Of a stretch of DNA of 64,000 nt, positions 19,959 to 33,555 are shown piece after piece. Under the pieces are notes generated by a model. That model was not told the DNA's origin. It made no database searches and saw nothing but the letters and a program-made list of their open reading frames with translations. Source of the DNA: an uncultured Armatimonadota bacterium. GTDB taxonomy: Bacteria; Armatimonadota; Fimbriimonadia; Fimbriimonadales; Fimbriimonadaceae. Every line of letters begins with the position of its first letter. The first letter of the stretch is position 1. A program made the position numbers and the translations under genes. The DNA is taken from the NCBI GenBank assembly GCA_903927025.1, contig CAIYLG010000016.1, positions 1 to 64,000 on the forward strand, written 5' to 3'.

Positions 19959-20035
19959 CGGGGCGTGGCGCAGTTTGGTAGCGCGCTTCCATGGGGTGGA
20001 AGAGGTCGCACGTTCGAATCGTGTCGCCCCGACCA
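19959..20035 (+). tRNA. tRNA-Pro (GGG)
   Basis: A 77-nt cloverleaf with a 7-bp acceptor stem (CGGGGCG/CGCCCCG), D-arm GGCGCAGTTTGGTAGCGC, anticodon stem CTTCC/GGAAG around the loop ATGGGGT with anticodon GGG at 19993-19995, T-loop GTTCGAATC, and encoded CCA. Its 3' half from 19988 is repeated at 33501, which marks it as the integration site of the island. Confidence 0.96.
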
Positions 20036-20042
20036 GATTTTT
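19988..20042 (+). repeat. Left attachment repeat (attL) of the tRNA-Pro island
   Basis: These 55 bases, from the anticodon stem to TTTTT past the tRNA 3' end, recur exactly at 33501-33555 in direct orientation. A tRNA 3' end copied at the far border of an island is the classic trace of tyrosine-integrase insertion. The tRNA gene itself stays intact on this side. Confidence 0.93.
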
Positions 20043-20092
20043 GAACCTAAACCCCGTTCTTTCTTCCACTTTAGTGCGGGCTAAAGTGCCTT

Positions 20093-20114
20093 GGTCTCTC
20101 AATTGGTCTCTCAA
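20093..20114. repeat. Paired GGTCTCTCAA repeats, left end of first module
   Basis: Two copies of GGTCTCTCAA begin 12 bp apart, about one helical turn, between attL and the integrase start. Similar pairs occur at 29164/29175, 29361/29372 and 33408/33419. Position near att sites suggests arm-type integrase binding sites. Confidence 0.65.
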
Positions 20115-20137
20115 CGGACTCCCGTAGACTGTTTTCC

Positions 20138-21307
20138 GTGGCGTCGAAAGCAGACAACAGGGACGGTTCTTGCAAGGAAATCCTCACGGGGAAACTCGCT
20201 GGCAAGTGGCGTGTCCAGTTCACCTACGAGGACGAGTTCTACCGCAAGCAGCGCGTTTCCCGCATCTTCCCCAACAGAAGTGAAGCCAAGGATTTCCTCA
20301 AAGACCTCATTCGAGGAGCGAAGATTGAATCGGCGAAGGAGAAGAAAGAACTCACCCTTGGCGGGTGGTTCGACTGGCTGGCTGAAAACGACTGGCCGGA
20401 ATCTCTCGATGAGAAGACCATTAACAACCGGCAGGGCCGGTTCAACAAACATGTCCGATCTACGTTTGGCAATGTACCGCTCACCAAGATCGATCCTTTA
20501 ACCGTCCGGGCCTTCTACAAACGCTTGCGCTCCGATGGTGTAGGAGATGCAACTGTCCACGGCATTAAGGCCAACCTCGTCCGGGTTTTCAATCAAGCGG
20601 TGAGCCCGTATGGCCGGGTTCCTATGACCCACGCGAATCCCTTCCGCCTCACCATTGCCACACCAACGCTCAGCCACGTCTTGAGTCGCGACCAAATCAT
20701 CACACTCGGCTACTTCGGCTCGGTGACTCGGCTGAATTCGCGGTTCCGCCACCTTAGGTCAGCGGGCTACATTGCCGTATTTGAAACGCCGTTCTTTAGC
20801 CAGAACCTCTATGTGGCCGGTAGAGCCGCCACGCGTGTTCTCCGTGAGGGAGTCGAACAGTTACTGTCCAGGCGACTGCCGTCTCCGCGATTCGTTCAAC
20901 ATGCGCTCGCCGTGACTGATACGCGAATAGCCCTCATGAGACAGGGATGCTCTGATTGGCGATTTGAACCCCAACTGCGGCATTCCTTCCTGTACGGTGG
21001 CCGAACCATTGAAATCCGACCGGACGGGATGGTCCGTCGTGACGGCGTTATGACCCTATTGGAGGTCGATATGGGGCATGTCGATCCCGCGAAGTTTGCG
21101 AGAAAACTCGCAGGGTATCAGGCATTCAAGGATTCCGGAGAACTCCCCCGCCTCTGGGGAGAGCGAACACTTGCTGTTCAAACCATTACGACCGGCCCCT
21201 TGCGACGGGCACGATTGGCTCGCCTTTGTCCTGGGAATTCTGAGATTTGCTTCGGCTTCCTAACATTTAACGATCTGAGCATCGAAGTTGTGGGAGGCTG
21301 GAGTTGA
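20138..21307 (+). CDS. Chimeric protein: integrase N-terminal domains fused to a replication-relaxation-like domain
   Basis: A 389-residue protein. Residues about 10-70 are the AP2-like arm-binding domain of tyrosine integrases (GKLAGKWRVQFTYEDEFYRKQ), and about 75-175 are the SAM-like core-binding domain (TFGNVPLTKIDPLTVRAFYKRL). After NPFRLTIATPT the expected catalytic domain is absent: no HxxR or active-site Tyr box is seen. Instead LSRDQIITLGYFGSVTRLNSRFRHLRSAGYI and later RPDGMVRRDGVMTLLEVDMGH resemble replication-relaxation proteins. The start is GTG at 20138. It may bind att DNA without cutting it. Confidence 0.8.
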   Translation: MASKADNRDGSCKEILTGKLAGKWRVQFTYEDEFYRKQRVSRIFPNRSEAKDFLKDLIRGAKIESAKEKKELTLGGWFDWLAENDWPESLDEKTINNRQGRFNKHVRSTFGNVPLTKIDPLTVRAFYKRLRSDGVGDATVHGIKANLVRVFNQAVSPYGRVPMTHANPFRLTIATPTLSHVLSRDQIITLGYFGSVTRLNSRFRHLRSAGYIAVFETPFFSQNLYVAGRAATRVLREGVEQLLSRRLPSPRFVQHALAVTDTRIALMRQGCSDWRFEPQLRHSFLYGGRTIEIRPDGMVRRDGVMTLLEVDMGHVDPAKFARKLAGYQAFKDSGELPRLWGERTLAVQTITTGPLRRARLARLCPGNSEICFGFLTFNDLSIEVVGGWS

Positions 21308-21792
21308 TTCTCTGCGCGAATTGCAAACGGCTTTGGCCGGAAGGGACAACCTGGTGCGGCAACTGCCGACGGACACTTAGCAAGCGCATCTGTCCGGAGG
21401 GCCATATCAGTCCGGTCTACGCCAACTGCTGCTCGACTTGCGGATCGTCGAAATTGACACCGGGAACGAGGTCGTTGAGGTTTCGACCACTGTCGTGGTT
21501 GGTGGTGGCCGGCATGGTAGTCATGCTCGCGCCTTTTGCCCTGAGTCTGCTAGGAACCGGGCTCCAAGCAGTCTATGTATGGTTTATTAACGTCGTCTTT
21601 GAACGGCTGATCGTGCTTGGTCTCTTTAGCTGGATCGCGGGATTGATCTTGGGTGAGCGAGCACGAAAGGTCATCAGCGATCTCTGGCATGCCGTGTTTC
21701 GACTCCTTATCAGTGGCCTGTTAGCAATTCCACGCGCGTTCTTCAGGAGGAGGTTTCACTACCGCCACGATGAGGACGCGCCGCATCAGTAA
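21304..21792 (+). CDS. Zinc-ribbon membrane protein, unknown
   Basis: A 162-residue protein starting at a TTG that overlaps the stop of the previous gene. Two zinc-ribbon-like Cys sets are present (CANCKRLWPEGTTWCGNC and CPEGH...CCSTCGSSK, residues 4-50), then two hydrophobic segments (about 62-87 and 92-118) and a basic tail. It is typical cargo-adjacent small membrane protein and has no assignable function. The overlap suggests co-translation with the chimeric integrase gene. Confidence 0.7.
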   Translation: MILCANCKRLWPEGTTWCGNCRRTLSKRICPEGHISPVYANCCSTCGSSKLTPGTRSLRFRPLSWLVVAGMVVMLAPFALSLLGTGLQAVYVWFINVVFERLIVLGLFSWIAGLILGERARKVISDLWHAVFRLLISGLLAIPRAFFRRRFHYRHDEDAPHQ

Positions 21793-21852
21793 GGCAAATC
21801 AATGGTGCCGAACCAGGACATGTACTGAATATTTTCAGATTTTGGCGTGTTT

Positions 21853-21908
21853 TTGCACGGAACCTTTTAATTCATTGTATAGTGTGATCGCGCGATCATG
21901 CGATCACA
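21853..21908 (+). promoter_or_regulatory. Promoter with overlapping palindromic operator for the conjugation operon
   Basis: A -10-like TATAGT lies at 21878-21883 with TTGCAC at 21853-21858 (19-bp spacer, so a weak match). Directly over and after the -10 is the perfect inverted repeat TGTGATCGC (21883-21891) with GCGATCACA (21900-21908), spaced by GCGATCAT, itself partly palindromic. It lies 19 bp before the start codon of the first gene. The arrangement is that of a repressor-controlled promoter; the Phd-like domain in the third gene is one candidate DNA binder. Confidence 0.55.
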
Positions 21909-21927
21909 TGACTGAGTGGAGAAATCT

Positions 21928-22116
21928 ATGCCCCGACCTACAATTGCTGAGCTCGAAAAAATTCTTCAAAACGAACAGGAAACTGAAATCGAAATTCTGC
22001 CAAATGGTGAAGTTCGCGCCAAAGGACAGACATCCCAGGCGGAACTTGGAAACAGGAAGCCACTGACGATGCGAGAAAACCTAGGCGGTGAGTACTCACA
22101 GAAGGAACACCGTTGA
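21928..22116 (+). CDS. 62-residue operon leader protein, possible modifier or accessory peptide
   Basis: The ATG at 21928 is chosen because GGAG sits 7 bp upstream; a GTG at 21916 would add four residues. The product is short and acidic, with the motif TIAELEKILQNE followed by IEILPNGEVRA, then a polar tail ending in ENLGGEYSQKEHR. A Gly-Gly eight residues from the end is the kind of site a JAB protease could trim to expose a conjugatable tail. The sequence does not look like a full beta-grasp ubiquitin fold. It heads the operon and overlaps the E2-like gene by 4 bp. Confidence 0.7.
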   Translation: MPRPTIAELEKILQNEQETEIEILPNGEVRAKGQTSQAELGNRKPLTMRENLGGEYSQKEHR

Positions 22117-22487
22117 ACATTCAGCGCATCCGAGCCGAAGTAGCGCAGGCGAGCAACCAGTTTGCTTATGTTGAGGCGCACCCCACTGAGGAAGGCGGAG
22201 TCTATGTCCGAGCAGCAATGCAGACATCAGCTGAGAAGACGTACTTCATTTCGATTTTCTTTCCCGAATATCCCAATCGAACTCCGAAGGTGTATATCAC
22301 GAATCCAAAACTTGGGGCGAGCCCTCACCAATACAACGACGGAACGATTTGTTACCTGCATCCAAATATGTGGAACCCAGGAACTCACAATCTAACCTTT
22401 GTGCTCGGCAGGATCGCTAAGTGGCTCAATAAATACGAGGTCTGGCTTGTTCGGGGAAAGTGGCCAGGCGCGGAGGTTCCGCACTAA
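22113..22487 (+). CDS. E2-like ubiquitin-conjugating fold protein (prokaryotic E2)
   Basis: A 124-residue protein starting at TTG 22113 with AAGGA upstream. The N-terminal half (YFISIFFPEYPNRTPKVYITNP) matches the E2 beta-meander and the Pro-rich segment. Then comes SPHQYNDGTICYLHPNMWNPG with the predicted catalytic Cys80, His72, and Trp87 in the WNPG motif, and an amphipathic helix ending in LNKYEVW. This is the layout of bacterial E2 family B proteins. It would accept an activated modifier from the E1-like protein encoded three genes on. Its stop abuts the next start. Confidence 0.87.
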   Translation: MNIQRIRAEVAQASNQFAYVEAHPTEEGGVYVRAAMQTSAEKTYFISIFFPEYPNRTPKVYITNPKLGASPHQYNDGTICYLHPNMWNPGTHNLTFVLGRIAKWLNKYEVWLVRGKWPGAEVPH

Positions 22488-23027
22488 ATGCCACTTGATT
22501 TTGGCTTGCTTTCCATGACTGAGTTGAGGACCCGTCCCGGCGAGATCCTAGATCGAGTCGCCAACAATGGTGAGGCATTTGTCATTGAGTCAAATAGCCG
22601 TCGCAAGGCCTGTTTGGTTCCACTCTCGTTCTTCTTCCCAGACGTTTCACCGGCACGCATTAGTGCCGAGATGCAAGAGCTTGCGGATCGTGGCGAGGAA
22701 CCCCGAACGACGTTTACCGTAGGGCGAGAACTAGCCTTTCGCTTCGATGCAAATCTCGATGACAACACTACGGTAGAGATACTAATTCTCCTCCCGCATG
22801 GATATCCAAGTAGTTGCCCGAAGGTCTATGCCAATCCCATTTCAGAAGAAGCGCCGCACCGATGGGCGGATGGCGCGCTCTGCCTCTATGGAGTTATGAC
22901 TGGGTGGAATCCTGGCAAGCACACCGTACTGACCACATTGAACCTAACTCGCCAATGGCTTAAGCACTACGACACGTGGCTGAAATGCCACGAATGGCCC
23001 ACCCCGGAGAATTTAATATATGAATGA
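22488..23027 (+). CDS. Second E2-like protein with N-terminal Phd/YefM-antitoxin-like segment
   Basis: A 179-residue protein. Residues about 9-50 (LSMTELRTRPGEILDRVANN, then GEAFVIESNSRRKACLVPL) follow the Phd/YefM pattern: helix with R and E, LLDRV, a loop, then beta strand and LVPL. Residues about 75-175 repeat the E2 layout: LPHGYPSSCPKVYANP, APHRWADGALCLYGVMTGWNPG with Cys132 and Trp140, and RQWLKHYDTW. Both E2-like genes keep the same active-site frame, so this is a paralogue with an added DNA-binding or dimerising domain. An ATG at 22515 is an alternative start inside the Phd part. Overlaps the E1 gene by 8 bp. Confidence 0.85.
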   Translation: MPLDFGLLSMTELRTRPGEILDRVANNGEAFVIESNSRRKACLVPLSFFFPDVSPARISAEMQELADRGEEPRTTFTVGRELAFRFDANLDDNTTVEILILLPHGYPSSCPKVYANPISEEAPHRWADGALCLYGVMTGWNPGKHTVLTTLNLTRQWLKHYDTWLKCHEWPTPENLIYE

Positions 23028-23868
23028 AGATCAACTTTTTGCGCGAATAGCGCCGCTCTTTGATGTTGGGCAGTTTGGCGAAGCCAAAGTCTTGATTGCA
23101 GGCTGTGGATCTGGTGGCGGGCAAGTCGCATTGCAGCTCGCAATGGCAGGTGTACGTAACTTTGACTTGTTCGACACAGACACGTTAGAAGCCGAGAATG
23201 TCATTCGCCATGTATGCGGAAGACGCTACGTAGGTCAGCAAAAAGTCGATGCGCTAGCCGACGTTCTTCTTGATCGCAACCCAGCCATTCAAATCAACAA
23301 ATTCAATGCTGACCTCATGGAGTGTTCAGATCTCGGCTATCGCATTTCACAGAGTACGGTTGTTGTGCTAGCAACTGATAATGAACCAACCCGGTATCGA
23401 ATTAACCAGCTATGTGTAGAAACCGAAACACCTTTTGTTATCGGTCGAGTATTCACGAGAGGAATCGGCGGCGAAGTCTTTGGCTATCGACCGAACGAAG
23501 GCGGGTGCCTGGCGTGTTTGGAGAGTGTCTTGGAGCGGACACAGTTTCGGGATGGCATTCGGGAAATAGACTTAGTCTCAGACGATGAGCGAGAAAAAAT
23601 CTATGGGCTTGAGATTGCTGAAATCAAAGACTCGCCCGGCTTAAACGTAGACATTGCATTCATTACGTGCTTCCACACACGTTTTGTTCTTGACGCTATC
23701 GCGCGGTCATTGCCTGAGCGACCAACGCATCTCCCACCAATTGATAACAACTACCTGGTGTGGGGGAATCGACCGGTCCAGCCATTCCAAAAGAACTTTG
23801 AAATTCAAAGAATCAGTCTCCAACCTCAAGAAGGCTGTCTGATCTGCCACCAGGGAGGCACTGAATGA
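23020..23868 (+). CDS. ThiF/E1-like adenylyltransferase
   Basis: A 282-residue E1-like protein. The Rossmann nucleotide loop is VLIAGCGSGGGQVALQLAMAG (residues 24-44), followed by the acidic FDTDTLEAENVIRHV and the adenylation segment GRRYVGQQKVDAL. VVLATDNEPTRYRINQLC is typical of ThiF. CxxC pairs at 163-166 (CLAC) and near the C-terminus (CLIC) could bind zinc. It should adenylate the C-terminus of a modifier and hand it to an E2. It lacks a ubiquitin-fold domain. Start and stop overlap both neighbours, so translation is coupled. Confidence 0.93.
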   Translation: MNEDQLFARIAPLFDVGQFGEAKVLIAGCGSGGGQVALQLAMAGVRNFDLFDTDTLEAENVIRHVCGRRYVGQQKVDALADVLLDRNPAIQINKFNADLMECSDLGYRISQSTVVVLATDNEPTRYRINQLCVETETPFVIGRVFTRGIGGEVFGYRPNEGGCLACLESVLERTQFRDGIREIDLVSDDEREKIYGLEIAEIKDSPGLNVDIAFITCFHTRFVLDAIARSLPERPTHLPPIDNNYLVWGNRPVQPFQKNFEIQRISLQPQEGCLICHQGGTE

Positions 23869-24860
23869 AGTGGTTTCAAGCGAAAAACATAAAGATCATC
23901 GTGCCACATGCTGCCTTGATGACGATCTTTGATGAATGCGACCGATTTGATCGGGACGAGACTGGAGGCCGGATAGTTGGTGTCTTCAAGGAAGAAAGAG
24001 GCATTCTTACCTTGACCATCTCTGGTCTGATTGAGGCTGGCCCGAAGGCAGAGCGATCACCGACCTATTACTTAGGTGATGTCGATTACCAAGAAGATAC
24101 CTTCCGCAAAATTGAGAGCGTGCACCCCGAAGTTGAGCACCTTGGCAATTGGCATACACATCATGTAAACGGTTTATCAAGATTGAGCGGTGGCGATCTC
24201 GCTACCTACCAACGCACGGTCAACCATCCAAATCAGAACACGCCTTTTTTTTACGCCCTACTGGTCGTCGCAAGACAGAAGAGCAAGGACCCGCTTCAAA
24301 GGTATAGCCTAAAGCATTATGTATTCCGACCGAATGATGATCGGGTTCACGAAGTATCAGCCAACATGGTCGAGATTACTGAGGGGCCGCTAATTTGGCC
24401 ATCTGACCCTGACCCTGTGTCAAGTTCGGAATCTCCGGAGGATATTCCGAGTGCGGATCCCCAGGCTCGTTCGAACCCTGAGCATTCGCCAGTAGAGTTA
24501 GGAGAAAAATCCGTTATCGCAAAGCCAGAACGAGTGTATGACCGCGATATTATCGGAGAGTTTTACCGGGGAGTTCGCCCGTACACCGCCCCACAGCTTG
24601 GCTTGTATTGGCGGGGACCGATTGAACTAGCTAACGGCCAAAAGACGGAAGTCATTGTGCTTGAGGATGCTTCCAGCACGGAACCCACGTATTCCGTGAC
24701 GCTGAGACTACCGACCGAATCCTTGATCGCAGTCGGAGAACAATTGGCTAAGCGGGATTTCCCTTCGGCACGATCTGCGCTCATAACGGCAGAACGAAGT
24801 TGTAACCGGATTCTTTTCGAGCTTGGTGGGGGTTCGAAGTTACCGGATGAAGCGAATTAG
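23865..24860 (+). CDS. JAB/JAMM-family metalloprotease (deconjugase-like)
   Basis: A 331-residue protein. Residues about 10-180 form a JAB/Mov34 domain: DETGGRIVG with Glu32, then NWHTHHVNGLSRLSGGD, giving His97, His99, Ser108 and Asp111. The spacing between HxH and SxxD is one residue longer than the usual seven. From about 185 to 225 the chain is Pro/Ser/Glu-rich and probably a linker, and the C-terminal 100 residues form a separate domain (REFYRGVRPYTAPQLGLYW-like). It would process the modifier or cleave it from targets. It overlaps the E1 gene by 4 bp. Confidence 0.9.
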   Translation: MKWFQAKNIKIIVPHAALMTIFDECDRFDRDETGGRIVGVFKEERGILTLTISGLIEAGPKAERSPTYYLGDVDYQEDTFRKIESVHPEVEHLGNWHTHHVNGLSRLSGGDLATYQRTVNHPNQNTPFFYALLVVARQKSKDPLQRYSLKHYVFRPNDDRVHEVSANMVEITEGPLIWPSDPDPVSSSESPEDIPSADPQARSNPEHSPVELGEKSVIAKPERVYDRDIIGEFYRGVRPYTAPQLGLYWRGPIELANGQKTEVIVLEDASSTEPTYSVTLRLPTESLIAVGEQLAKRDFPSARSALITAERSCNRILFELGGGSKLPDEAN

Positions 24861-24870
24861 GAGGAAAGGC

Positions 24871-25731
24871 ATGGATATTTTTACACTTTACGCCGGCCAG
24901 GGCGACTTGGCAGCAATTCGCTCCGGAAAGGAAGCAGTTATCATTGATGCGCACATGCCCACCTGCGAGGGCGTGACCGCAGTACAAATTGAAAAGGGGC
25001 TCGACCATTACCTTGAAAGGTCAAATGTTCGTGGCCTAGTGATCACCGGTCTCGATAAGGATCACGCATGTCCGGCTGGAGTCGATTCGATCTTAACGAG
25101 GTTTGAACCGGACTGGGTGATGTACCCGACGTACTACAAGGCGACGGAAGCTGCAACCGAGGTCTTCGCGATAATCGACCGCCATGTAAAGCGACGGTTG
25201 ATGTCTAGTCGACCTCTGCTTAGAAAGTCCGTACGTGTCGATCGTTGTGACCACCGTTATTTCACGGACTTGGCAGATGAATTCGCATTCGAACTCTTCT
25301 CTCCACACATGGAGGACATGGACTCTTCGAACAATAGCAGCATCGTTCTCAAGGTTACTGGGCTTGATTCTACGGGCTTCAGTTACTTAGTTACTGGCGA
25401 CACAGAATCTGGTCGATGGGAAACCATCAATAGAATATTCGGGCATGACCTCAAGTCCGATGTAATGTCGGCTCCCCATCACGGGGCTCGCACGGGAGTC
25501 AATGCAGAGACGCTGCTCCTGGTGGAGCCCAATACCGTCCTCATCAGTGCCGGCGTTGACAATTCCTATGGCCATCCCTATTCATGTGCTGTCACTGCCT
25601 ATCAGGCTATCGCAGAGCACGTGTTCTCAACCCACGCAGAGTTAGGTTCTTGCCTGTTTACTCGGCGATCAGGAACGGATTTTGAAACGACTCTTGTTCG
25701 CCACTTCGAGCCTGAGCTATCGGTTGTATAG
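24871..25731 (+). CDS. ComEC-type MBL-fold protein with altered metal motif
   Basis: The ATG at 24871 is preceded by AGGAGG at 6 bp and makes a 286-residue protein; the upstream frame is ignored. FTLYAGQGDLAAIRSGKEAVIIDAHM is the MBL N-terminus. The metal motif reads TGLDKDHACPAG: the first His of THxHxDH is Gly and the second is Asp. Later motifs include YLVTGD and SAPHHGARTG, both normal for ComEC-like MBL proteins. It may bind one metal or be inactive. It lies 10 bp behind the JAB gene. Confidence 0.85.
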   Translation: MDIFTLYAGQGDLAAIRSGKEAVIIDAHMPTCEGVTAVQIEKGLDHYLERSNVRGLVITGLDKDHACPAGVDSILTRFEPDWVMYPTYYKATEAATEVFAIIDRHVKRRLMSSRPLLRKSVRVDRCDHRYFTDLADEFAFELFSPHMEDMDSSNNSSIVLKVTGLDSTGFSYLVTGDTESGRWETINRIFGHDLKSDVMSAPHHGARTGVNAETLLLVEPNTVLISAGVDNSYGHPYSCAVTAYQAIAEHVFSTHAELGSCLFTRRSGTDFETTLVRHFEPELSVV

Positions 25732-25745
25732 CCTTGGATCAGCGA

Positions 25746-26561
25746 ATGAATTTTGCCACACAAAGTCTCATGAAAAAAGGCGTGCTTAATCGATACCAGC
25801 TTCAGGCCCGAGTATTCCCGGCAAGTCTGGCACTTCTCCCGGTCATTGCCGTGCCAATTGCGTGGGACAAGGACTTCCTTAACGCCACGAAGCCCCTCAT
25901 TGGCATCGTTTGCGGATCCGGGTTTGTTCTTCTCTTGGCACAGGTAGGTCGCGATCGAGGGCAACGTGTTCAGGACAAGCTCGTTGACGCTTGGGGAGGT
26001 CTTCTTACGACCGTTTTCCTTCGACACAGGAATGAGCGGATCGATGCCGTCAGCAAAGCCAGATATCATTCCCTCCTCGCAAAACATATTCCCGGAATCA
26101 CATTTCCGACTCCTGAACAGGAGTCCGCTGATCCAAAAGCTGCGGACGCTATCTACGCATCATCTGGCGAGTTCTTGAAAAACCACACGCGGGACCAAAA
26201 GAAGTTCGAAGTCCTCTTTATTGAGAACATCGACTACGGGTTTCGGCGAAATCTGTTCGGGCTCAAGCCGGTCGGTATTTTGGCTTGCATCATCGGTACA
26301 GTCGGCTGTGGGTGGAAACTTTGGCTTGACCACGTCGGTTCAACGCCTGGAGTTTCGCCAGTGGCTTTGTTAGGAACGTTACTTGGAGTGGTATTGGGAC
26401 TCGCCTGGATCTTCCTCATTAATCAGCGATGGGTTGAACGTGCCGCCGAGTCGTATGCGCTCCAGTTACTGCGCTCGATCGATCAAATAGGGGGCAAACC
26501 GAAAGCAAAGTCTCCTGAAGTCAAGACTGCTCGAAAGAGCACCAAAGCTAACAAGGATTAA
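25746..26561 (+). CDS. Multi-span membrane protein of the conjugation operon
   Basis: About 271 residues from ATG 25746 (a TTG at 25734 is possible). Two hydrophobic segments (about residues 24-40 and 51-67) precede a soluble part with QVGRDRGQRVQDKLVDAWGG, TRDQKKFEVLF and YGFRRNLFGLKPVG, then two more spans (about 182-201 and 212-233) and a Lys-rich tail. This four-span, cytosolic-domain plan is seen in several putative membrane effectors of bacterial immune operons, but I cannot name a family. A role as a membrane-active effector is inference. Confidence 0.75.
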   Translation: MNFATQSLMKKGVLNRYQLQARVFPASLALLPVIAVPIAWDKDFLNATKPLIGIVCGSGFVLLLAQVGRDRGQRVQDKLVDAWGGLLTTVFLRHRNERIDAVSKARYHSLLAKHIPGITFPTPEQESADPKAADAIYASSGEFLKNHTRDQKKFEVLFIENIDYGFRRNLFGLKPVGILACIIGTVGCGWKLWLDHVGSTPGVSPVALLGTLLGVVLGLAWIFLINQRWVERAAESYALQLLRSIDQIGGKPKAKSPEVKTARKSTKANKD

Positions 26562-26566
26562 TTACC

Positions 26567-27691
26567 ATGGGTATCGAGATTGACCTCTTAAAAGTTGGAG
26601 ACGCATCGAAGAGTGGCGATGCCATCACCGTTCGGTTCGGCAAGCTCGACGGAAATCGCGACGAGCAAACGGTACTCGTGATTGACACCGGATTCGCTGC
26701 CACCGGCACGGAAATCGTTGACCACGTCAAAAAGCACTACGGCACCGATTACATCGACCTGCTTGTCTGCACACATCCTGACCTTGATCATGCCGGAGGT
26801 CTTGAGACGGTGATCCAAGATCTAACACCGAAAGAAATTTGGATGCACTTGCCCTGGGAGCACTCAGCTGATATTCGCAATCTCTTCCATGACGGTCGGA
26901 TCACTGACGCCAGCTTGGACCGTCGAGTGCGCGAGGCGTACGATCATATTCACGATGCCTATGCACTCTCACTTGAACTTGAGATACCGGTAACGGAGCC
27001 GTTTAGTGATGGCGCAGAAGTTTTGCCACATCGAGAGAATGGACTCTATGTGCTCGGTCCAACCAAAGCCGCCTACCAAGCCTTACTACCCGATTTTAGG
27101 GGCACACCCAAAGCGAAGGAGAAAGCAAGACTTCAGGCTTTGACCGACTCTGTCCGAGCATTTTTCGCAAGTGCATCGGCGGCGGTCTCTAAAGCCTTCG
27201 AGAACTGGGGAATTGAAACGCTCAAAGATCCGGGCTCCAGTGCTACTGCCGCAGAAAATAATTCGAGCGCAATACTGTTGTTAATTGTAGACGACAAGCA
27301 ATACCTGTTCGCCGGTGATGCTGGGGTTGAGGGTTTGCAGACCGCGCTAGATTGCGCAAGTGATCTTGGCATTGATTTGAAAGATTCTGTATTCCTAAAG
27401 GTCCCACACCACGGCAGCAAACATAACGTCGGCCCGACTGTACTTAATCAACTAATCGGCGAACCACTGCCCAATCAGCCAACCAATCACAAAATGACGT
27501 GCGTAATAACCTCTACTGCGGGCGACGAGGGCCATCCTGCTCAAAAGGTGGTAAATGCCTTGCTGAGGCGCGGCGCTTTTGTCACGAGCACGGAGGATGG
27601 GAACAAACTTCATCATGCGGGTTGCCCGATGCGCCAAGGTTGGTCACCAATAGGCACGATGGTCTTGCATTCTGAAGTGGAGGACGACTAA
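26567..27691 (+). CDS. ComEC-type MBL-fold hydrolase
   Basis: A 374-residue protein. VIDTGFAATGTEIVDHVK, then VCTHPDLDHAGGLETV carries the metal motif (HxDxDH). YLFAGDAG and FLKVPHHGSKHNVG supply the later metal ligands. A region of about 80 residues between (PDFRGTPKAKEKARLQ...) is an insertion. The intact motif predicts an active hydrolase, perhaps on nucleic acid or a phosphate ester. It begins 5 bp after the membrane gene. It is a second paralogue in the operon. Confidence 0.88.
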   Translation: MGIEIDLLKVGDASKSGDAITVRFGKLDGNRDEQTVLVIDTGFAATGTEIVDHVKKHYGTDYIDLLVCTHPDLDHAGGLETVIQDLTPKEIWMHLPWEHSADIRNLFHDGRITDASLDRRVREAYDHIHDAYALSLELEIPVTEPFSDGAEVLPHRENGLYVLGPTKAAYQALLPDFRGTPKAKEKARLQALTDSVRAFFASASAAVSKAFENWGIETLKDPGSSATAAENNSSAILLLIVDDKQYLFAGDAGVEGLQTALDCASDLGIDLKDSVFLKVPHHGSKHNVGPTVLNQLIGEPLPNQPTNHKMTCVITSTAGDEGHPAQKVVNALLRRGAFVTSTEDGNKLHHAGCPMRQGWSPIGTMVLHSEVEDD

Positions 27692-27825
27692 ATAAGGGCC
27701 GCGGTAAGGGCTTTAGGGTGTCTAGCTGGCGAAATCAGATCAATTGCAGTGAAAGCGCGAGAACAAACCGCGACGCAGTACAATTACAGTGTGATTGAGG
27801 CAACTGTGGTTCATGAGGAAGGCAG

Positions 27826-29124
27826 TTGAAATCAAAAGGTGCTATGAGAGTCTCTCCCGTCATCGTAACCACGATTTTCCATCCTGTGGGCCAGGGACTG
27901 TTTGTCTCCGGCAGCTTCTATGGCAACGATTGCACAAGGAAATTCACTTGGTTTTTTGACTGCGGAGCACATCACGACCAAGGGCCTGTCGAGAGTGAAG
28001 TAAATCGGCTCGAAACCGAGCTCCACAAATACCCGGTTGATATGTTTTGCATATCTCACTTTGACAAAGACCATATAAGCGGAGCACAACTGCTTCTTCA
28101 AGGGCTGGGTGCGAAAGTCCTGATCCTTCCCTATATGAATCTGACTGATCGCATGCAACTCTTAATTGAGGAGGGGGCGGACGACTGGTACGCAGACTTT
28201 CTAGTCGACCCTGCGGCATTCATTTTTAGAATTACTGAAGGTAGGACACGAGTGATCTACGTTGAGGGTGGACCTGATCAACCTGATCAACCGCCAGATC
28301 TAGATGATCCAGATCAAGAGGACTCAAATGATAGTCGGGATGACAATTATCCGTTGAACCCACATTTTCCTCAGGGCGATCCCGTCTCGGTGGCAGATGC
28401 TCCCGGGTTGCATGCCCTGGGAAAGCAAGCTCACGCGGAGGTCATCACGCACGACCAGACGGTCAGTTTGGGTGGGCGGTGGGAGTTCGTCTTCTTCAAT
28501 GAAACCAGGAGAAATAAACCCATTGCTAAGTTACAGGATGATGTGCTTGCACTTGTCAATGAGAATCGGCACGAAGACGGAACATACAACGGAAAGGAAA
28601 TGCTCTGCGAACTGCGAAAACTTTACGAAGTCTGTTTCGGCTATGGAGGGCAGAATGCTAACCGAATATCGCTTGTGATGTATTCAGGCCCAACAAAACG
28701 GCGAAGCGCAAGCTTTCCGCCGTTCCGGCACCACCCGAAATATCATCGGTATTGCTGGGAAATCATGGAGAGCTTTGATATTATCGCTCCCAATACGGAT
28801 GTTCGTGATCAGGGCACACTAGTTTTGGGCACACTGCTAACAGGAGATATCTTCTTTGACCGGGAGCCAAAGATACGCGCCGCCGAGGTCCATTACTCGC
28901 CAAAAAGATGGCGTAGGATAGACATCCTCCAAGTACCACATCACGGTTCAAGTCACTCATGGTATGCCGGTGCGTCCGCACTGTTCAATAATCGAGTGAG
29001 CGTCTTTTCGGCAGGATCGGGAAGTCGAAGACATCCTGGGGCGATGGTGAAGGGCGACCTGGTAAATAGCGGCCCAACGTACGTCAACGAACACAAAGGG
29101 CTGTTCTTGGTTGGTTGGATCTAA
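27826..29124 (+). CDS. ComEC-type MBL-fold hydrolase, third paralogue
   Basis: A 432-residue protein. WFFDCGAHHDQGPVESEV, then FCISHFDKDHISGAQLLLQ carries the metal motif (HxDxDH), and ILQVPHHGSSHSW the later His pair. An acidic low-complexity stretch (PDQPDQPPDLDDPDQEDSND, residues about 150-170) splits the domain. The start may be TTG 27826 (GAGGAAGG upstream) or ATG 27844. A 134-bp gap separates it from the second MBL gene, so it may also have its own promoter. It is the last gene of the first module. Confidence 0.85.
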   Translation: MKSKGAMRVSPVIVTTIFHPVGQGLFVSGSFYGNDCTRKFTWFFDCGAHHDQGPVESEVNRLETELHKYPVDMFCISHFDKDHISGAQLLLQGLGAKVLILPYMNLTDRMQLLIEEGADDWYADFLVDPAAFIFRITEGRTRVIYVEGGPDQPDQPPDLDDPDQEDSNDSRDDNYPLNPHFPQGDPVSVADAPGLHALGKQAHAEVITHDQTVSLGGRWEFVFFNETRRNKPIAKLQDDVLALVNENRHEDGTYNGKEMLCELRKLYEVCFGYGGQNANRISLVMYSGPTKRRSASFPPFRHHPKYHRYCWEIMESFDIIAPNTDVRDQGTLVLGTLLTGDIFFDREPKIRAAEVHYSPKRWRRIDILQVPHHGSSHSWYAGASALFNNRVSVFSAGSGSRRHPGAMVKGDLVNSGPTYVNEHKGLFLVGWI

Positions 29125-29163
29125 CGGAACTGCCGTGGCCATGGCACTTGGTCAGTTCAATTT

Positions 29164-29381
29164 GGTCTCTCAACGGTCTCTCAACAGGTGGGTACAATCA
29201 AGGACGGTCGCGAACCCCTGTAGACTCAAAATCGTGCGGTTGAGGCCGCAATTTTCTCTATGGGGTCGAGAGAGGATGCGGCAGACTCTTTCGCGCAGTA
29301 AGTAGGTTTCTGGCTAAAAACCTATTGCAATCAGACCACTAACGTTCGATTATTAGGCTCGGTCTCTCAAAGGTCTCTCAA
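29164..29381. repeat. Internal module boundary: two GGTCTCTCAA pairs around a degraded att core
   Basis: A pair at 29164 and 29175 is followed by CTGTAGACTCAAAAT (29218-29232), TGCGG/CCGCA (29235-29250), and TCTATGGGGTCGAGAGAGG, a degraded match to the tRNA-Pro att core. A second pair starts at 29361 and 29372. The first half has the same order as the right border at 33408-33555. The 293-bp gap between genes 29124 and 29418 holds nothing else I can name. Confidence 0.7.
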
Positions 29382-29417
29382 TGCGGGGAAGAGTGCCGGG
29401 AATGCGCAATTTTAGGT

Positions 29418-30635
29418 TCAAAACGTGCCGCATGACATCTTCCAATCCGTGGAAGAACCAAACCAAGGCATCAAATCAATCTTGTTGCCCTTATCACTAG
29501 CATGGTCCGAGATATATTGGACCATTGAATGAATCAAACTAGGCGCCACTTCCAGATTCCCGTAATGTTGGCGTTCAATATTGGCAATTGAAGCCACCGT
29601 CAATTCTTCGCCAGCCGACGCGACCATACGTGCAAGTCGAGACCCGACAGAGAATCTGGTCTTGAAAACAAAAACAAGCGCACGAACAATGTTCAGCGCT
29701 ACAAACGGTGTCGAAGGGTTATTCACCTCGACTATTCTGTCAAGCATTCCATTAAAAAACTGCCCCTCACCGTCGTATAGTCGTCTTTCTCGACCTGGCT
29801 TAGTCCAAGTTTCGATGGCCACTGCTTCAATGTTCAGAAAAGTCGTATTGGGCAACTCTTCGAAAGACGGGATAACACCTTTGTTCTGTGTGAAATACAG
29901 CGTCTTGTCGAGCGGCCAAATATCAAAGCACCAATTCTGTCTTTCCAGCTGGAATCCGCCGAAACGCGTTCTCCTGTTTAATCTGGCAGTTAAGAATCCG
30001 ATATGATCCTCGATCTCTTGCGTCTTGATGTTGCTAACTACAATATCTATGTCGCGGGGAATACGACGCTCATTCTGATTAACTAGAGCTAGCCGTGATA
30101 GGCATCTAAGCAAGTTTTCTTCTGGATTTAACGTATGTTCCTCACCGGTATGCGCACAGGCCCCTGAGATGGTTTCTTGTTGAAGTCGCTCAAGTAAATC
30201 GCTTACTGTTCGAGATACGTTCTGAGCGTGCGCATACTTAGAGTGATTCTTGCCTCTCGAAGTTTGAATACAGGATAACAGAAAATGTTCATCTGAAAAA
30301 GCAAGCTGGTGCCCAATGTCGTGAAGAAGAGCCGCTAAACGGAGGTAATCGCTGTCGACTATTCGAGCCCTTTCGGCAATGCATTCTGCGTTGGAAACAA
30401 CATCGGACAAATGAGATGGTGCTCGATTACTGCCATGCTGTTTCTGGCGATACAACCTATTGAATAAAATGTCCCTAACGGAACCTCCGAATAAGACCGA
30501 TTTCCATTGCAGCGTCTCTAAGTCGTCAACAAACTGGACGACGGGCTGACGCCACAGGGCGTCACTAGTAAGGAAACGCGCAGTATCCTTACGAAGACTT
30601 GCCTTTAGGTCGTCGAGTGGATTAAGCGTGGCCAT
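29418..30635 (-). CDS. Nucleotidyltransferase with an inserted HD domain
   Basis: A 405-residue protein. VLFGGSVRDILFNR (48-61) is the Pol-beta-type GG motif of CCA-adding/poly(A) polymerase-like enzymes. The matching DxD (RDIDIVV, Asp195 and Asp197) comes only 140 residues later. Between them LRLAALLHDIGHQLAFSDEHF (98-118) is an HD phosphohydrolase core with His-Asp 105-106. FDIWPLD supplies a third acidic position. So an HD domain appears inserted in the nucleotidyltransferase. The gene overlaps the dGTPase gene by 14 bp and likely acts with it. Confidence 0.8.
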   Translation of the reverse strand: MATLNPLDDLKASLRKDTARFLTSDALWRQPVVQFVDDLETLQWKSVLFGGSVRDILFNRLYRQKQHGSNRAPSHLSDVVSNAECIAERARIVDSDYLRLAALLHDIGHQLAFSDEHFLLSCIQTSRGKNHSKYAHAQNVSRTVSDLLERLQQETISGACAHTGEEHTLNPEENLLRCLSRLALVNQNERRIPRDIDIVVSNIKTQEIEDHIGFLTARLNRRTRFGGFQLERQNWCFDIWPLDKTLYFTQNKGVIPSFEELPNTTFLNIEAVAIETWTKPGRERRLYDGEGQFFNGMLDRIVEVNNPSTPFVALNIVRALVFVFKTRFSVGSRLARMVASAGEELTVASIANIERQHYGNLEVAPSLIHSMVQYISDHASDKGNKIDLMPWFGSSTDWKMSCGTF

Positions 30636-32007
30636 CTGTTAATTCAGAGTGTAGTCGAACAGCAAAGCCGTCCGTCATCCCGCAGATATAGTCTGTCAGT
30701 AGGAGACATCGATAGTACATAACGTTTGCAGGTGGATCTCCGACTGCCTTTTGGAAGACTCTTGCGTAATTCTCAGAGACTAAAAGCCCTGCCTTTCCTT
30801 CAAACGTTTTTGTACGTGGCTTGGCTCCTAACTTCAACGGGTAGTCGGAGATCCCAGTCCACAAGATGTCCATCAGATTCCCGATGATTCTCAGGCCAGT
30901 TAACTCAAGCTTAAGAATCGCAGGAACTCCAAACACTTTTGCTCCCTTGATTGATTCAAGTGAACGGTGCAGCTCTGACGCGTCGCATTCGGAAACCAGA
31001 TCTCCCTTAAACTCTCCATTCATGATTGAGACGTAATTGTCTTGAAAAACCTTCCGCACGGATTCCACTAGAACTGAGATCATCGCAGTTCGAAAGGCAG
31101 TGACCTTCTCGTCGTCTGTAAACGGTCGCTCTGCTGATCTGTCGGGATCGAGGATGCTCATTATTCTTGTATCGATGTCTTCAAGCCCTATGCCAGCTTG
31201 CGAGATCCAATCCTCAACGTCGCTGAATCGCAACACGCCACGCTTAACCGCATCCTCGATGTCTGCTGTTGCATTTACGATATCGTCAGCGGCTTCTACA
31301 ATAAAAGTGATTGGATTTCGTGAACGGCCAGTTGAGCATTCTTGCTGAACTTCATTTACGAACGGCTCTTCTGCGAAGAAATAGCCTGGCTTCCTATGAG
31401 CATGCTCCGAGGAGTCTTTGTCTGCCTCGACAGAATTTGCGGTGTATTTGAGGCAGGCAGAATAACTCCCGTACGTAAGATTCAGGCCAGCAGACTCGCC
31501 TAACACCTGCAAACTGCGCACGAGCCTGAGGGACTGTGCGTTACCTTCGAAGTACAGGAAATCATTCCTCTGTTGCGGAGTCATCGAACTGAATTTTTTC
31601 TTGAAGTCGGAATCTCTCTTAATCTTCGACTTAAACCACTCTCTGATTGCATCCTCACCAGCGTGGCCAAAGGGAGGATTTCCGAGGTCGTGGACCAGCG
31701 CCGCCGTTGCCGCAAGAGTTTCTACGTCTCTCTGCTTTTCCGCATTCCAATCGAGTTCAGTGGCTTTCATCACAGGCTCCACAGCGGCAGCTATTCCACG
31801 GGATAGACTCGAAACTTCCAGAGTATGGGTCAACCGCGTCCGAATCGAGTCATTTGCTTCAAGTGGAAATACTTGCGTCTTGTCCTGCAGACGTTTGAAA
31901 GGAGTTGAGAAAATTATGCGTCCGTAATCCCTCTCAAAGGCCGACCGATGATCGCTTAGTCGCGACTCGCGCTTTCGATTAAAGTTCAGTAATCTATCCC
32001 AGTCCAT
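30622..32007 (-). CDS. dGTPase-like HD dNTP triphosphohydrolase
   Basis: The ATG at 32007 has AAGGGA 6 bp upstream and gives MDWDRLLNFNRKRESR, the normal family N-terminus; the product is about 461 residues. DYGRIIFSTPFKRLQDKTQVFPL, RTRLTHTLEVSSLSRG (first His), AALVHDLGNPPFGHAGE (HD pair) are diagnostic of dGTPase/dNTPase. It hydrolyses dNTPs to nucleoside and triphosphate. Such enzymes can stop phage by draining dNTPs. Downstream it overlaps the nucleotidyltransferase-HD gene. Confidence 0.92.
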   Translation of the reverse strand: MDWDRLLNFNRKRESRLSDHRSAFERDYGRIIFSTPFKRLQDKTQVFPLEANDSIRTRLTHTLEVSSLSRGIAAAVEPVMKATELDWNAEKQRDVETLAATAALVHDLGNPPFGHAGEDAIREWFKSKIKRDSDFKKKFSSMTPQQRNDFLYFEGNAQSLRLVRSLQVLGESAGLNLTYGSYSACLKYTANSVEADKDSSEHAHRKPGYFFAEEPFVNEVQQECSTGRSRNPITFIVEAADDIVNATADIEDAVKRGVLRFSDVEDWISQAGIGLEDIDTRIMSILDPDRSAERPFTDDEKVTAFRTAMISVLVESVRKVFQDNYVSIMNGEFKGDLVSECDASELHRSLESIKGAKVFGVPAILKLELTGLRIIGNLMDILWTGISDYPLKLGAKPRTKTFEGKAGLLVSENYARVFQKAVGDPPANVMYYRCLLLTDYICGMTDGFAVRLHSELTDGHA

Positions 32008-32244
32008 TTCGTTCCCTTGGTGCCCAAAATCGCGAATTTTCAGTATACAGGCAGGACAACTGAAGCGCCGCATTTGAACGGTACTGCCCTTGTCAGTTAG
32101 TTTGGCTTCAGACTGAGCGAGAAAGAATTCCGCAGTCGCTCCCCACCAGACATCATCACCTTGACACGGACACTTGCCATATCTTTGATCAAAAAGTCGA
32201 CAGTGTTGACTACCTACTGGCTGTTCAAGGCAGTTTGGAGGCAC
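32008..32244 (-). other. Possible zinc-ribbon extension of the dGTPase frame
   Basis: The dGTPase frame stays open for 79 codons upstream to a GTG at 32244 that lacks a visible ribosome site. The translation has Cys pairs (KCPCQGDDVWW, later RRFSCPACIL) that look like a zinc-binding segment, so it may be a real N-terminal domain or an unrelated small gene. Evidence from the start site favours the shorter protein. Confidence 0.4.
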
Positions 32245-32457
32245 TAGATTAGTTTACTTGTACCTGATATATAGCAACTGATTCGATTTCCTGCGTTTGT
32301 TTGATTCGAACAGTGTGTGCTACTAGAAACTTGGCTTTCTTCCTCGGACGCTTCAAGATCAGGACGAGAATGTTCTCGCGAGAATCGACTCAGCCTTCGC
32401 AACTCTATCTGGAGTGTTTGTCATCCAAAAACCCTGATTACTTGCTTGCACAGCGGA

Positions 32458-33234
32458 TCACAACTGAAACACTTTGGCTTCAAGCTGGAAGGAAGCTTCT
32501 TGTATGAAGAGCGGGTAGCCGATCAGGAGATTACTACGACGCTCTTCCTCACCGACATAATAATACAGCTCATTGGAAATCGACCTCTTCTTGTAAACGC
32601 ATTTCACCCGGCGTGGCTCCAAGACGATTCCTCCTAGCTCGCGGAGAATCTCGACAGGTTTCGGACCAGCCCTTTTTTGATTCAGATGAACAAACCGACC
32701 GGCCTCACTTGGAAAGCACTGTTCAAGTAAGGCGTGCAGTGCCGACTTTCCTGACCATGTGCCGGAATAACCGCCGTCAGCTGAACTCGGGTGTGCGATG
32801 AGCAATAAAAAGGTGCCTTGAGCTTCCCACTTTGGTGAAGCTGGGTCGTAATCTTCAGCGTATGGTTCTGCGCTCCAGAAAATCAACTCCCGGAGGTCTA
32901 GATCGGCGTCTTTAGGCACTGGGACCACGACCTTAGTCACGGTTGTCACTTCCGTAACAAACATTCGCGACGCCGATTGGGTATCAACATGACTCGGAGG
33001 TCGACCGTAATCAATGTCTTTTGCCATGTACAGTAAATGCTCAACTCTACTCGCTGCCTCATGATCTGTCCAAGCTCGCGGTCGCTGAACACTTTTACCG
33101 CTCGCCTTTAGGCTTGCGATACCTGCTTCGAACCCTGCTTCACGGATCGTGTTCATCGCCTCTGGTTCGTTTGCCTGCTCCAGATATCCAAGCATTCTCT
33201 GGCGATCAAGATACAAATACTCCACGAACGCCAT
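32458..33234 (-). CDS. Unknown protein, first gene of dNTPase module
   Basis: A 258-residue protein starting MAFVEYLYLDRQRMLGYLEQ after a GAGGAA site. It is soluble, with a beta-rich middle (MFVTEVTTVTKVVVPVPKDADLDLREL, shown in pieces: MFVTEVTTV and VVVPVPKD) and PVEILRELGGIVLEPRRVKCVYKKR near the end. I recognise no family. The 213-bp gap to the dGTPase frame and the same orientation suggest one operon or closely linked transcription. It could be a sensor or regulator for the nucleotide-hydrolysing genes, but this is inference. Confidence 0.65.
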   Translation of the reverse strand: MAFVEYLYLDRQRMLGYLEQANEPEAMNTIREAGFEAGIASLKASGKSVQRPRAWTDHEAASRVEHLLYMAKDIDYGRPPSHVDTQSASRMFVTEVTTVTKVVVPVPKDADLDLRELIFWSAEPYAEDYDPASPKWEAQGTFLLLIAHPSSADGGYSGTWSGKSALHALLEQCFPSEAGRFVHLNQKRAGPKPVEILRELGGIVLEPRRVKCVYKKRSISNELYYYVGEEERRSNLLIGYPLFIQEASFQLEAKVFQL

Positions 33235-33407
33235 TTCCTCAGGTTACACTATTGCGGCAGCCTTCGAAACTGGGCATTAGATATGCACTCCAAACCCAGA
33301 ATCCAATCATTCGTTCGTCTGGTGACACCAAACGAAATGCATCGGAATCCTGTAGTCGCTATGTGCCCGGAGAAACGGCTTCGGAAAAGATAGACCCCAC
33401 GGCGCTT

Positions 33408-33555
33408 GGTCTCTCAAAGGTCTCTCAATTGGTGGAGAAAACCAGGTACTCAGAGAGACGCCTGTAGACTCAAAATTGTGCGGTTGTACCCGCAATTTCC
33501 TCCATGGGGTGGAAGAGGTCGCACGTTCGAATCGTGTCGCCCCGACCAGATTTTT
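33408..33555 (+). repeat. Right attachment region (attR) of the island
   Basis: Order: GGTCTCTCAA pairs at 33408 and 33419, CTGTAGACTCAAAAT (33462), TTGTGCGG/CCGCAA hairpin, then the exact 55-bp copy of the tRNA-Pro 3' end at 33501-33555. The same order, degraded, is seen at 29164 and 36756. It marks the right border of the island and the old tRNA-distal sequence begins after it. Confidence 0.9.

Follow-up and report, generated by a model that had tools for sequence, protein, structure and literature searches.

A 62-residue protein with a conserved C-terminal GEY tag, candidate stand-alone modifier of a probably anti-phage E1-E2-JAB operon

The window, that is the whole stretch of 64,000 nucleotides that was analysed, carries a 13.5-kb genomic island (19988-33555) lying between exact 55-bp repeats (Table 1). 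An operon on this island opens with a gene for a 62-residue protein, followed in order by genes for an E2, a Phd/YefM-E2 fusion, a ThiF-type E1, a JAB metallopeptidase, a lactamase-fold protein and a probable membrane protein. From the family names, the island location and the partners involved, the operon is probably an anti-phage defence system. The island also holds two further lactamase-fold proteins (26567-27691 and 27826-29124), the former with a full-length match (4.5e-86) to the PADLOC candidate PDC-M48B, as well as a dGTPase-like HD protein (30622-32244, minus strand; PADLOC dGTPase 2e-68) that, together with a second HD protein at 29418-30635, probably constitutes a separate defence module.

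Table 1. Features of the island and of the operon, with window coordinates and the basis of each assignment
Feature	Position	Strand	Basis
Left attachment-type repeat, overlapping tRNA-Pro(ggg) 19959-20035	19988..20042	+	exact 55-bp repeat
Integrase-N / replication-relaxation-like ORF of the island	20138..21307	+	Pfam Phage_int_SAM_3 and Replic_Relax
First operon gene, coding for the 62-aa tail protein (candidate stand-alone modifier)	21928..22116	+	ORF, overlap with E2 start, pN/pS; conserved in ten further operons
Conserved C-terminal tag KPLTMRENLGGEY	22057..22095	+	alignments; single occurrence of the motif in window and in genome
SQKEHR, variable extension beyond the conserved Tyr, missing from five relatives	22096..22113	+	comparison of relatives
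E2 (ubiquitin-conjugating fold), invariant Cys80	22113..22487	+	PADLOC E2 1e-16, Pfam UQ_con 2e-4
Second E2-like domain, in fusion with a Phd/YefM antitoxin domain	22488..23027	+	Pfam PhdYeFM 3e-7, PADLOC E2 2e-10
ThiF-type E1, two Zn-type Cys pairs, without the Cap2 catalytic-loop Cys	23020..23868	+	Pfam ThiF 5e-32
JAB metallopeptidase, intact E, HxH, S, D, with C-terminal alpha-beta4-alpha2 domain	23865..24860	+	PADLOC JAB 2e-14
Metallo-beta-lactamase-fold protein (ComEC/6A-MBL-like), no C-terminal Gly tail	24871..25731	+	ComEC_Rec2 5e-23, 6A-MBL_enzyme 7e-9 (NCBIfam)
Probable membrane protein, possible effector	25734..26561	+	hydrophobic segments in ORF
Right attachment-type repeat	33501..33555	+	exact 55-bp repeat

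The ATG start of the first gene is preceded by GGAG, and its TGA stop (22114-22116) shares bases with the TTG at which the E2 gene begins (22113). Comparison with its relative in the locus L002, which is 76% identical, gave a pS of 0.78 (saturated) and a pN of 0.14 in the coding frame, a contrast absent from both shifted frames; the ORF is therefore a genuine gene under purifying selection. Its product, MPRPTIAELEKILQNEQETEIEILPNGEVRAKGQTSQAELGNRKPLTMRENLGGEYSQKEHR, ends in KPLTMRENLGGEYSQKEHR, and the earlier note had correctly read it as 62 residues with a Gly-Gly followed by exactly eight more (EYSQKEHR). The same note had imagined a modifier outside the ubiquitin fold, in the manner of Pup, and the AlphaFold2 model agrees: a helix (residues 6-14) and a hairpin (21-31) are predicted, with low confidence elsewhere (mean pLDDT 65), so that the protein is predicted to be largely disordered and not beta-grasp, a prediction only moderately strong and subject to the usual caution for a short sequence. 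No ubiquitin-like match above the cut-offs was obtained with Pfam and NCBIfam, and no family name with these two collections, PHROGs or PADLOC. Profile matches in the PDB were to designed beta-trefoils and covered only the ILPNGEV hairpin, and were taken as coincidence. Among the named phage records, searches for the small protein gave no match, or two chance-level hits.

The enzymes encoded downstream place the operon in the broad E1-E2-JAB conjugation kind, their sequences indicating an adenylating-type E1, a cysteine-bearing E2 and an intact JAB metal site. Profile searches of the PDB match the first E2 to known E2s, and its cysteine does not vary across the aligned relatives. In the second E2-like domain the alignment shows Ser in place of Cys in Mesorhizobium, for which reason the Phd-E2 fusion may be a UEV-like partner. 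The E1 matches ThiF, MoeB and MccB in the PDB, MccB at 2e-20, and in 6/6 E1s aligned with two Cap2 proteins the Cap2 cysteine segment GCGxxxxPYSxxD is replaced by PGLNVD or SGLSID. The JAB protein keeps E32, H97, H99, S108 and D111 invariant among its aligned relatives, and its predicted model matches Rpn11 and BRCC36 in Foldseek; the modelled order of elements in its C-terminal domain resembles the E2/RWD fold, in topology only. In Mesorhizobium (L007) a patatin phospholipase, recognised by gene order and a Patatin match, takes the last position of the operon in place of the membrane protein, which fits an exchangeable effector there. Pfam and NCBIfam scans found no ubiquitin-like gene above cut-off in the operon, and to the reach of these scans the absence of a beta-grasp gene asserted in the earlier note holds. 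Two other proteins of the operon were considered as modifier and rejected: the JAB protein, whose own near-terminal GGG (ELGGGSKLPDEAN) is not conserved, and the lactamase, suggested by canonical 6A-MBL, whose C-terminus is not conserved in operons of the window type.

Eleven operons, the one in the window included, were collected from Acidobacteriota, Binatia, Mesorhizobium, Cyanobacteria and one CBASS locus, and in 11/11 a small protein ending in or near [GA]EY stands directly before the E2. Ten of them were reached through the E1 or the E2; the second Binatia copy was met first through the small protein, then through the E2 too. An E1 scan of genome contigs yielded operons in three cyanobacteria and in one MAG each of Acidobacteriaceae and Binatia, an E1 search of plasmids the Mesorhizobium operon, and whole-genome searches the second Binatia copy, two more cyanobacteria and an acidobacterial CBASS operon, G192. 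The locus L002, from a different collection, is a window-type operon in an Acidobacteriaceae genome, and the E2 profile run against 290 Acidobacteriota genomes recovered the G192 variant only. The small protein is missing from the weaker E2 matches (L015-L017, L069), which belong to CBASS or other operon types. The Binatia MAG (G292) contains two divergent copies of the window-type operon (L003, L025). In L017, a 60-aa ORF (1947-2129, ending AQEATRFA) lies between the E2 and the E1 of a different JAB-E2-E1 operon, and is similar to the N-terminal part of the longer L069 E1. The gene order of G192 is cyclase, small GEY protein, E2, E1, JAB, a second tagged protein and a SAVED protein; the second tagged protein has 117 aa, is unrelated to the small one and ends in SILRDARGEYRE, while the cyclase ends FPREVGQ, with the caution that VGQ likewise holds a near-terminal Gly. 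In this acidobacterial CBASS operon (L072; 4419-4772 and 7084-7293, both on the minus strand) the [KR]GEY tag is carried twice, by a 69-aa protein after the cyclase and by the 117-aa protein, which is helical, after the JAB.

Conservation of the small protein converges on its C-terminal tag, which reads KP[LI]T[MF]RE[ND]LGGEY with minor changes in the acidobacterial, Binatia, rhizobial and phage proteins, and LRDx[KR]GEY in cyanobacteria and G192 (LRDx[KR][GA]EY with the Ala variant). G54, E55 and Y56 are invariant in 22 aligned sequences; one further cyanobacterium, outside this alignment, has Ala for Gly (KAEY). Conservation of the Gly-Gly, on which the idea of a modifier had been staked, is thus partial: the Gly beside EY is invariant bar this one Ala, as is EY itself, but Lys or Arg replaces the first Gly in the cyanobacterial and CBASS-linked members, and the doublet is limited to one branch. 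The Mesorhizobium protein and four cyanobacterial proteins stop exactly at the Tyr; the remaining members continue for 2-13 residues, the bacterial ones for 3-8, and nothing in these extensions is conserved apart from the first residue: in 20 of 21 extended tails it is one of A, G, S and T (binomial probability of about 3e-9 when set against the other tail positions, with no correction for relatedness). Since the residues beyond the Tyr are variable or absent, the functional end of the protein appears to lie at or just before it. At the DNA level, a degenerate pattern encoding [LI]T[MF]R[ED][ND]LGGEY has a single match in the window and none in 100 shuffles, and a shortened version of it has a single match in the 5.25-Mb genome. 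Among 7,693 ORFs of the collected loci, a C-terminal [RK][ED]x(1,3)[GA]EY was found in members of the family and in two other proteins only, the second tagged protein of G192 and a Phd-like phage protein; the tag, carried by these two as well, is portable between proteins.

Stand-alone members bearing the tag were found in thirteen distinct viral genomes (fifteen contigs), the viral contigs having been searched with alignments of the small protein and with a DNA pattern for the tag alone. Their neighbours include a P22-type portal and coat (L045), terminase and portal (L049) and a major capsid gene (L035), and two copies of the tag protein occur on one viral contig (L044, L060). The Phd-like protein, of Phd/YefM type and 72 aa, is encoded on the viral contig L052 (7830-8045) with the tail GPKPLTFREDLGGEYAQ, ending FREDLGGEYAQ; a Phd domain is common to it and to the second E2 fusion of the window operon. 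Two other viral proteins (L050, 4122-4286; L051, near 8001) keep the N-terminal TIDELEK...ILPNGE without the GGEY tag. A search of sixteen viral records, fragments among them, turned up no ThiF (E1) gene. The phage copies could be decoys, hijackers or something unrelated. Portability of the tag and its presence in phages both go beyond what the earlier note had proposed.

Taken together, we propose that the 62-residue protein is a stand-alone conjugation partner of non-ubiquitin fold, a tail protein, serving a probably anti-phage E1-E2-JAB operon related to 6A-MBL and type II CBASS, and we give this reading a probability of roughly 0.58. It is the best candidate for the missing modifier of the operon, conjugation itself being inferred. 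In its favour count the position before the E2 in all eleven operons, the invariance of [GA]EY with variable or absent residues past the Tyr, the portable tag, the tailless lactamases of the window-type operons, the predicted disorder without a beta-grasp, the intact E2 and JAB active sites, and the precedent of cGAS (PMC10097602). The idea of a modifier has survived the refuting condition set in the earlier note, a Gly-Gly not conserved among homologues, and is best worded as a conserved tag protein that stands alone and is a probable conjugation partner, with a putative processing site.

In the mechanism we envisage, the JAB would trim the variable extension where there is one, and the exposed C-terminus would be adenylated by the E1, as its ThiF-type family suggests. 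The acyl group would then probably pass straight to the E2 cysteine, given that the E1 has no Cap2 catalytic-loop cysteine; the E2, perhaps with the Phd-E2 partner, would join the protein to a target, and the JAB would reverse the reaction. The effector arm would consist of the lactamase-fold enzyme together with the membrane protein or patatin. Where the JAB would cut is less clear than a trimming site at Gly-Gly implied: the extension is variable and dispensable, as that claim supposed, but conservation ends only after the Tyr and five proteins stop naturally at [GA]EY, which makes trimming after Gly-Gly one of two options. A cut before EY would leave a Gly/Ala end, as in cGAS, and a cut after the Tyr would give the end found naturally in those five proteins; the odds are near even, slightly favouring Gly.

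Several observations count against a modifier. A Tyr would be unusual as the C-terminus of an E1 substrate, and if EY is cut off its invariance lacks an explanation. Phage copies retain the tag though an E1 gene was not found in their contigs, and a binding motif would give the same conservation. These last two points, with the conservation of the whole KP[LI]T[MF]RE[ND]LGGEY stretch beyond its last residues, would suit an accessory or docking protein whose tag is a short binding motif, recruiting or regulating the E1, the E2, the JAB or a sensor, and is never activated, the actual modifier being a different protein. Such a role is rather unlikely in our estimate, as the tag sits at the very C-terminus in all members, exactly at the Tyr in five, and as the window-type lactamases, without the 6A-MBL Gly tail, leave no other obvious substrate. 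The close homologues in thirteen viral genomes, several beside portal, capsid or terminase genes, raise the different thought that the small protein began as a phage protein and was captured; the operon would then monitor or attack the form borne by phages, its own copy serving as a mimic or a brake. We consider this improbable: what the cyanobacterial and CBASS-linked members have in common with the phage proteins is confined to the tag and the hairpin, and the phage copies turn up in several distinct gene neighbourhoods, in the manner of cargo.

Microcin C7 offers a further model, in which MccB, a ThiF-type adenylating enzyme without the E1 cysteine, acts on the C-terminus of the MccA peptide. 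By analogy, the E1 of the operon would adenylate the C-terminus of the small protein to yield a modified peptide instead of a protein conjugate, and its match to MccB, its lack of the Cap2 cysteine and a short substrate predicted to be mostly disordered would all be in keeping with this. The microcin pathway, however, has no E2 or JAB, whereas an E2 with intact cysteine and a JAB, neither needed for peptide modification, are always present here, and neither an exporter nor a tailoring enzyme was seen; peptide modification is accordingly very improbable.

A wider version of the modifier reading, in which a portable C-terminal [GA]EY conjugation tag on stand-alone non-ubiquitin proteins serves a family of E1-E2-JAB defence operons and the phage copies are decoys that jam or divert the machinery, is put forward only tentatively and is itself doubtful. 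If the small protein is conjugated, the tag shared with phage proteins would allow an arms race over such a tag to be tested directly in laboratory strains.

Set beside known systems, the small protein recalls Pup in being small, largely disordered (as predicted here) and outside the ubiquitin fold with a near-terminal Gly-Gly. Pup, unlike it, depends on the glutamine-synthetase-like ligase PafA and the side chain of a C-terminal Glu; the window operon has an E1, an E2 and a JAB in place of PafA/Dop partners, and its first protein ends in GGEY or GGEY plus an extension, not in GG[EQ]. Family searches gave no sequence similarity to Pup. In Bil and the other ubiquitin-like operons of bacteria (types 6d and 6e, and later work) the small proteins are beta-grasp with a C-terminal Gly; the operon resembles them in its small first-gene protein, E1, E2 and JAB, and differs in that its small protein is not predicted to be beta-grasp. 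A literature search that did not extend to the key Bil and Cap2 papers found none naming 6A-MBL or describing this operon.

The nearest comparison by gene content is 6A-MBL (NCBIfam NF058523/NF058524), which corresponds to operon type 6a of Iyer, Burroughs and Aravind 2006 (PMC1779556) and likewise sets E2, E1 and JAB modules next to a metallo-beta-lactamase with the ubiquitin-fold gene absent. In the window these modules are separate genes far below the curated cut-offs: against the fused E2-E1-JAB model the best scores are 50 and 47 bits (cut-off 320). The lactamase-fold gene reaches 35 bits with 6A-MBL_enzyme (cut-off 220), ComEC scoring higher. A fused 6A-MBL protein gave no match at 1e-20 in the window genome; six Acidobacteriota pass the cut-off. 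The extra Phd-E2 protein is another difference, and so is the location of the tail, which is carried in the window by the 62-residue protein and in 6A-MBL by the lactamase. In the six canonical acidobacterial loci (L074-L079), the lactamase beside the fused protein ends in PRVG, HRVG, HRVG, PQAG, PRAG-GC or PRAG-SEL, and this conserved Gly tail suggests that the 6A-MBL lactamase is itself activated by E1/E2; window-type lactamases end in unrelated residues (SVV, EVR, QAA).

Type II CBASS (Cap2/Cap3) shares E1/E2 and JAB relatives with the operon, and G192, one of the operon's relatives, is itself a CBASS operon. The protein conjugated there, a cGAS-type cyclase, is also non-beta-grasp and is attached through a C-terminal Gly/Ala (PMC10097602). 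No CD-NTase was found among the scanned proteins of the window operon, whereas the relative L072 has one; the window E1 lacks the Cap2 catalytic cysteine, and the tag in the window is on a small stand-alone protein. In E1-E2-JAB operons without a ubiquitin-like gene, an obvious modifier has been missing since the 2006 description, and CBASS solved one case, with the cyclase as the conjugated protein. Given that CBASS and 6A-MBL enzymes carry the tail while the window-type lactamases are tailless and the small protein is tagged, the simplest reading, by analogy, is that a tail normally found on the enzyme is here a separate protein; if that protein is conjugated, it would represent a second solution, in which the tail has been uncoupled from the enzyme and placed on an almost unfolded protein of ~60 residues.
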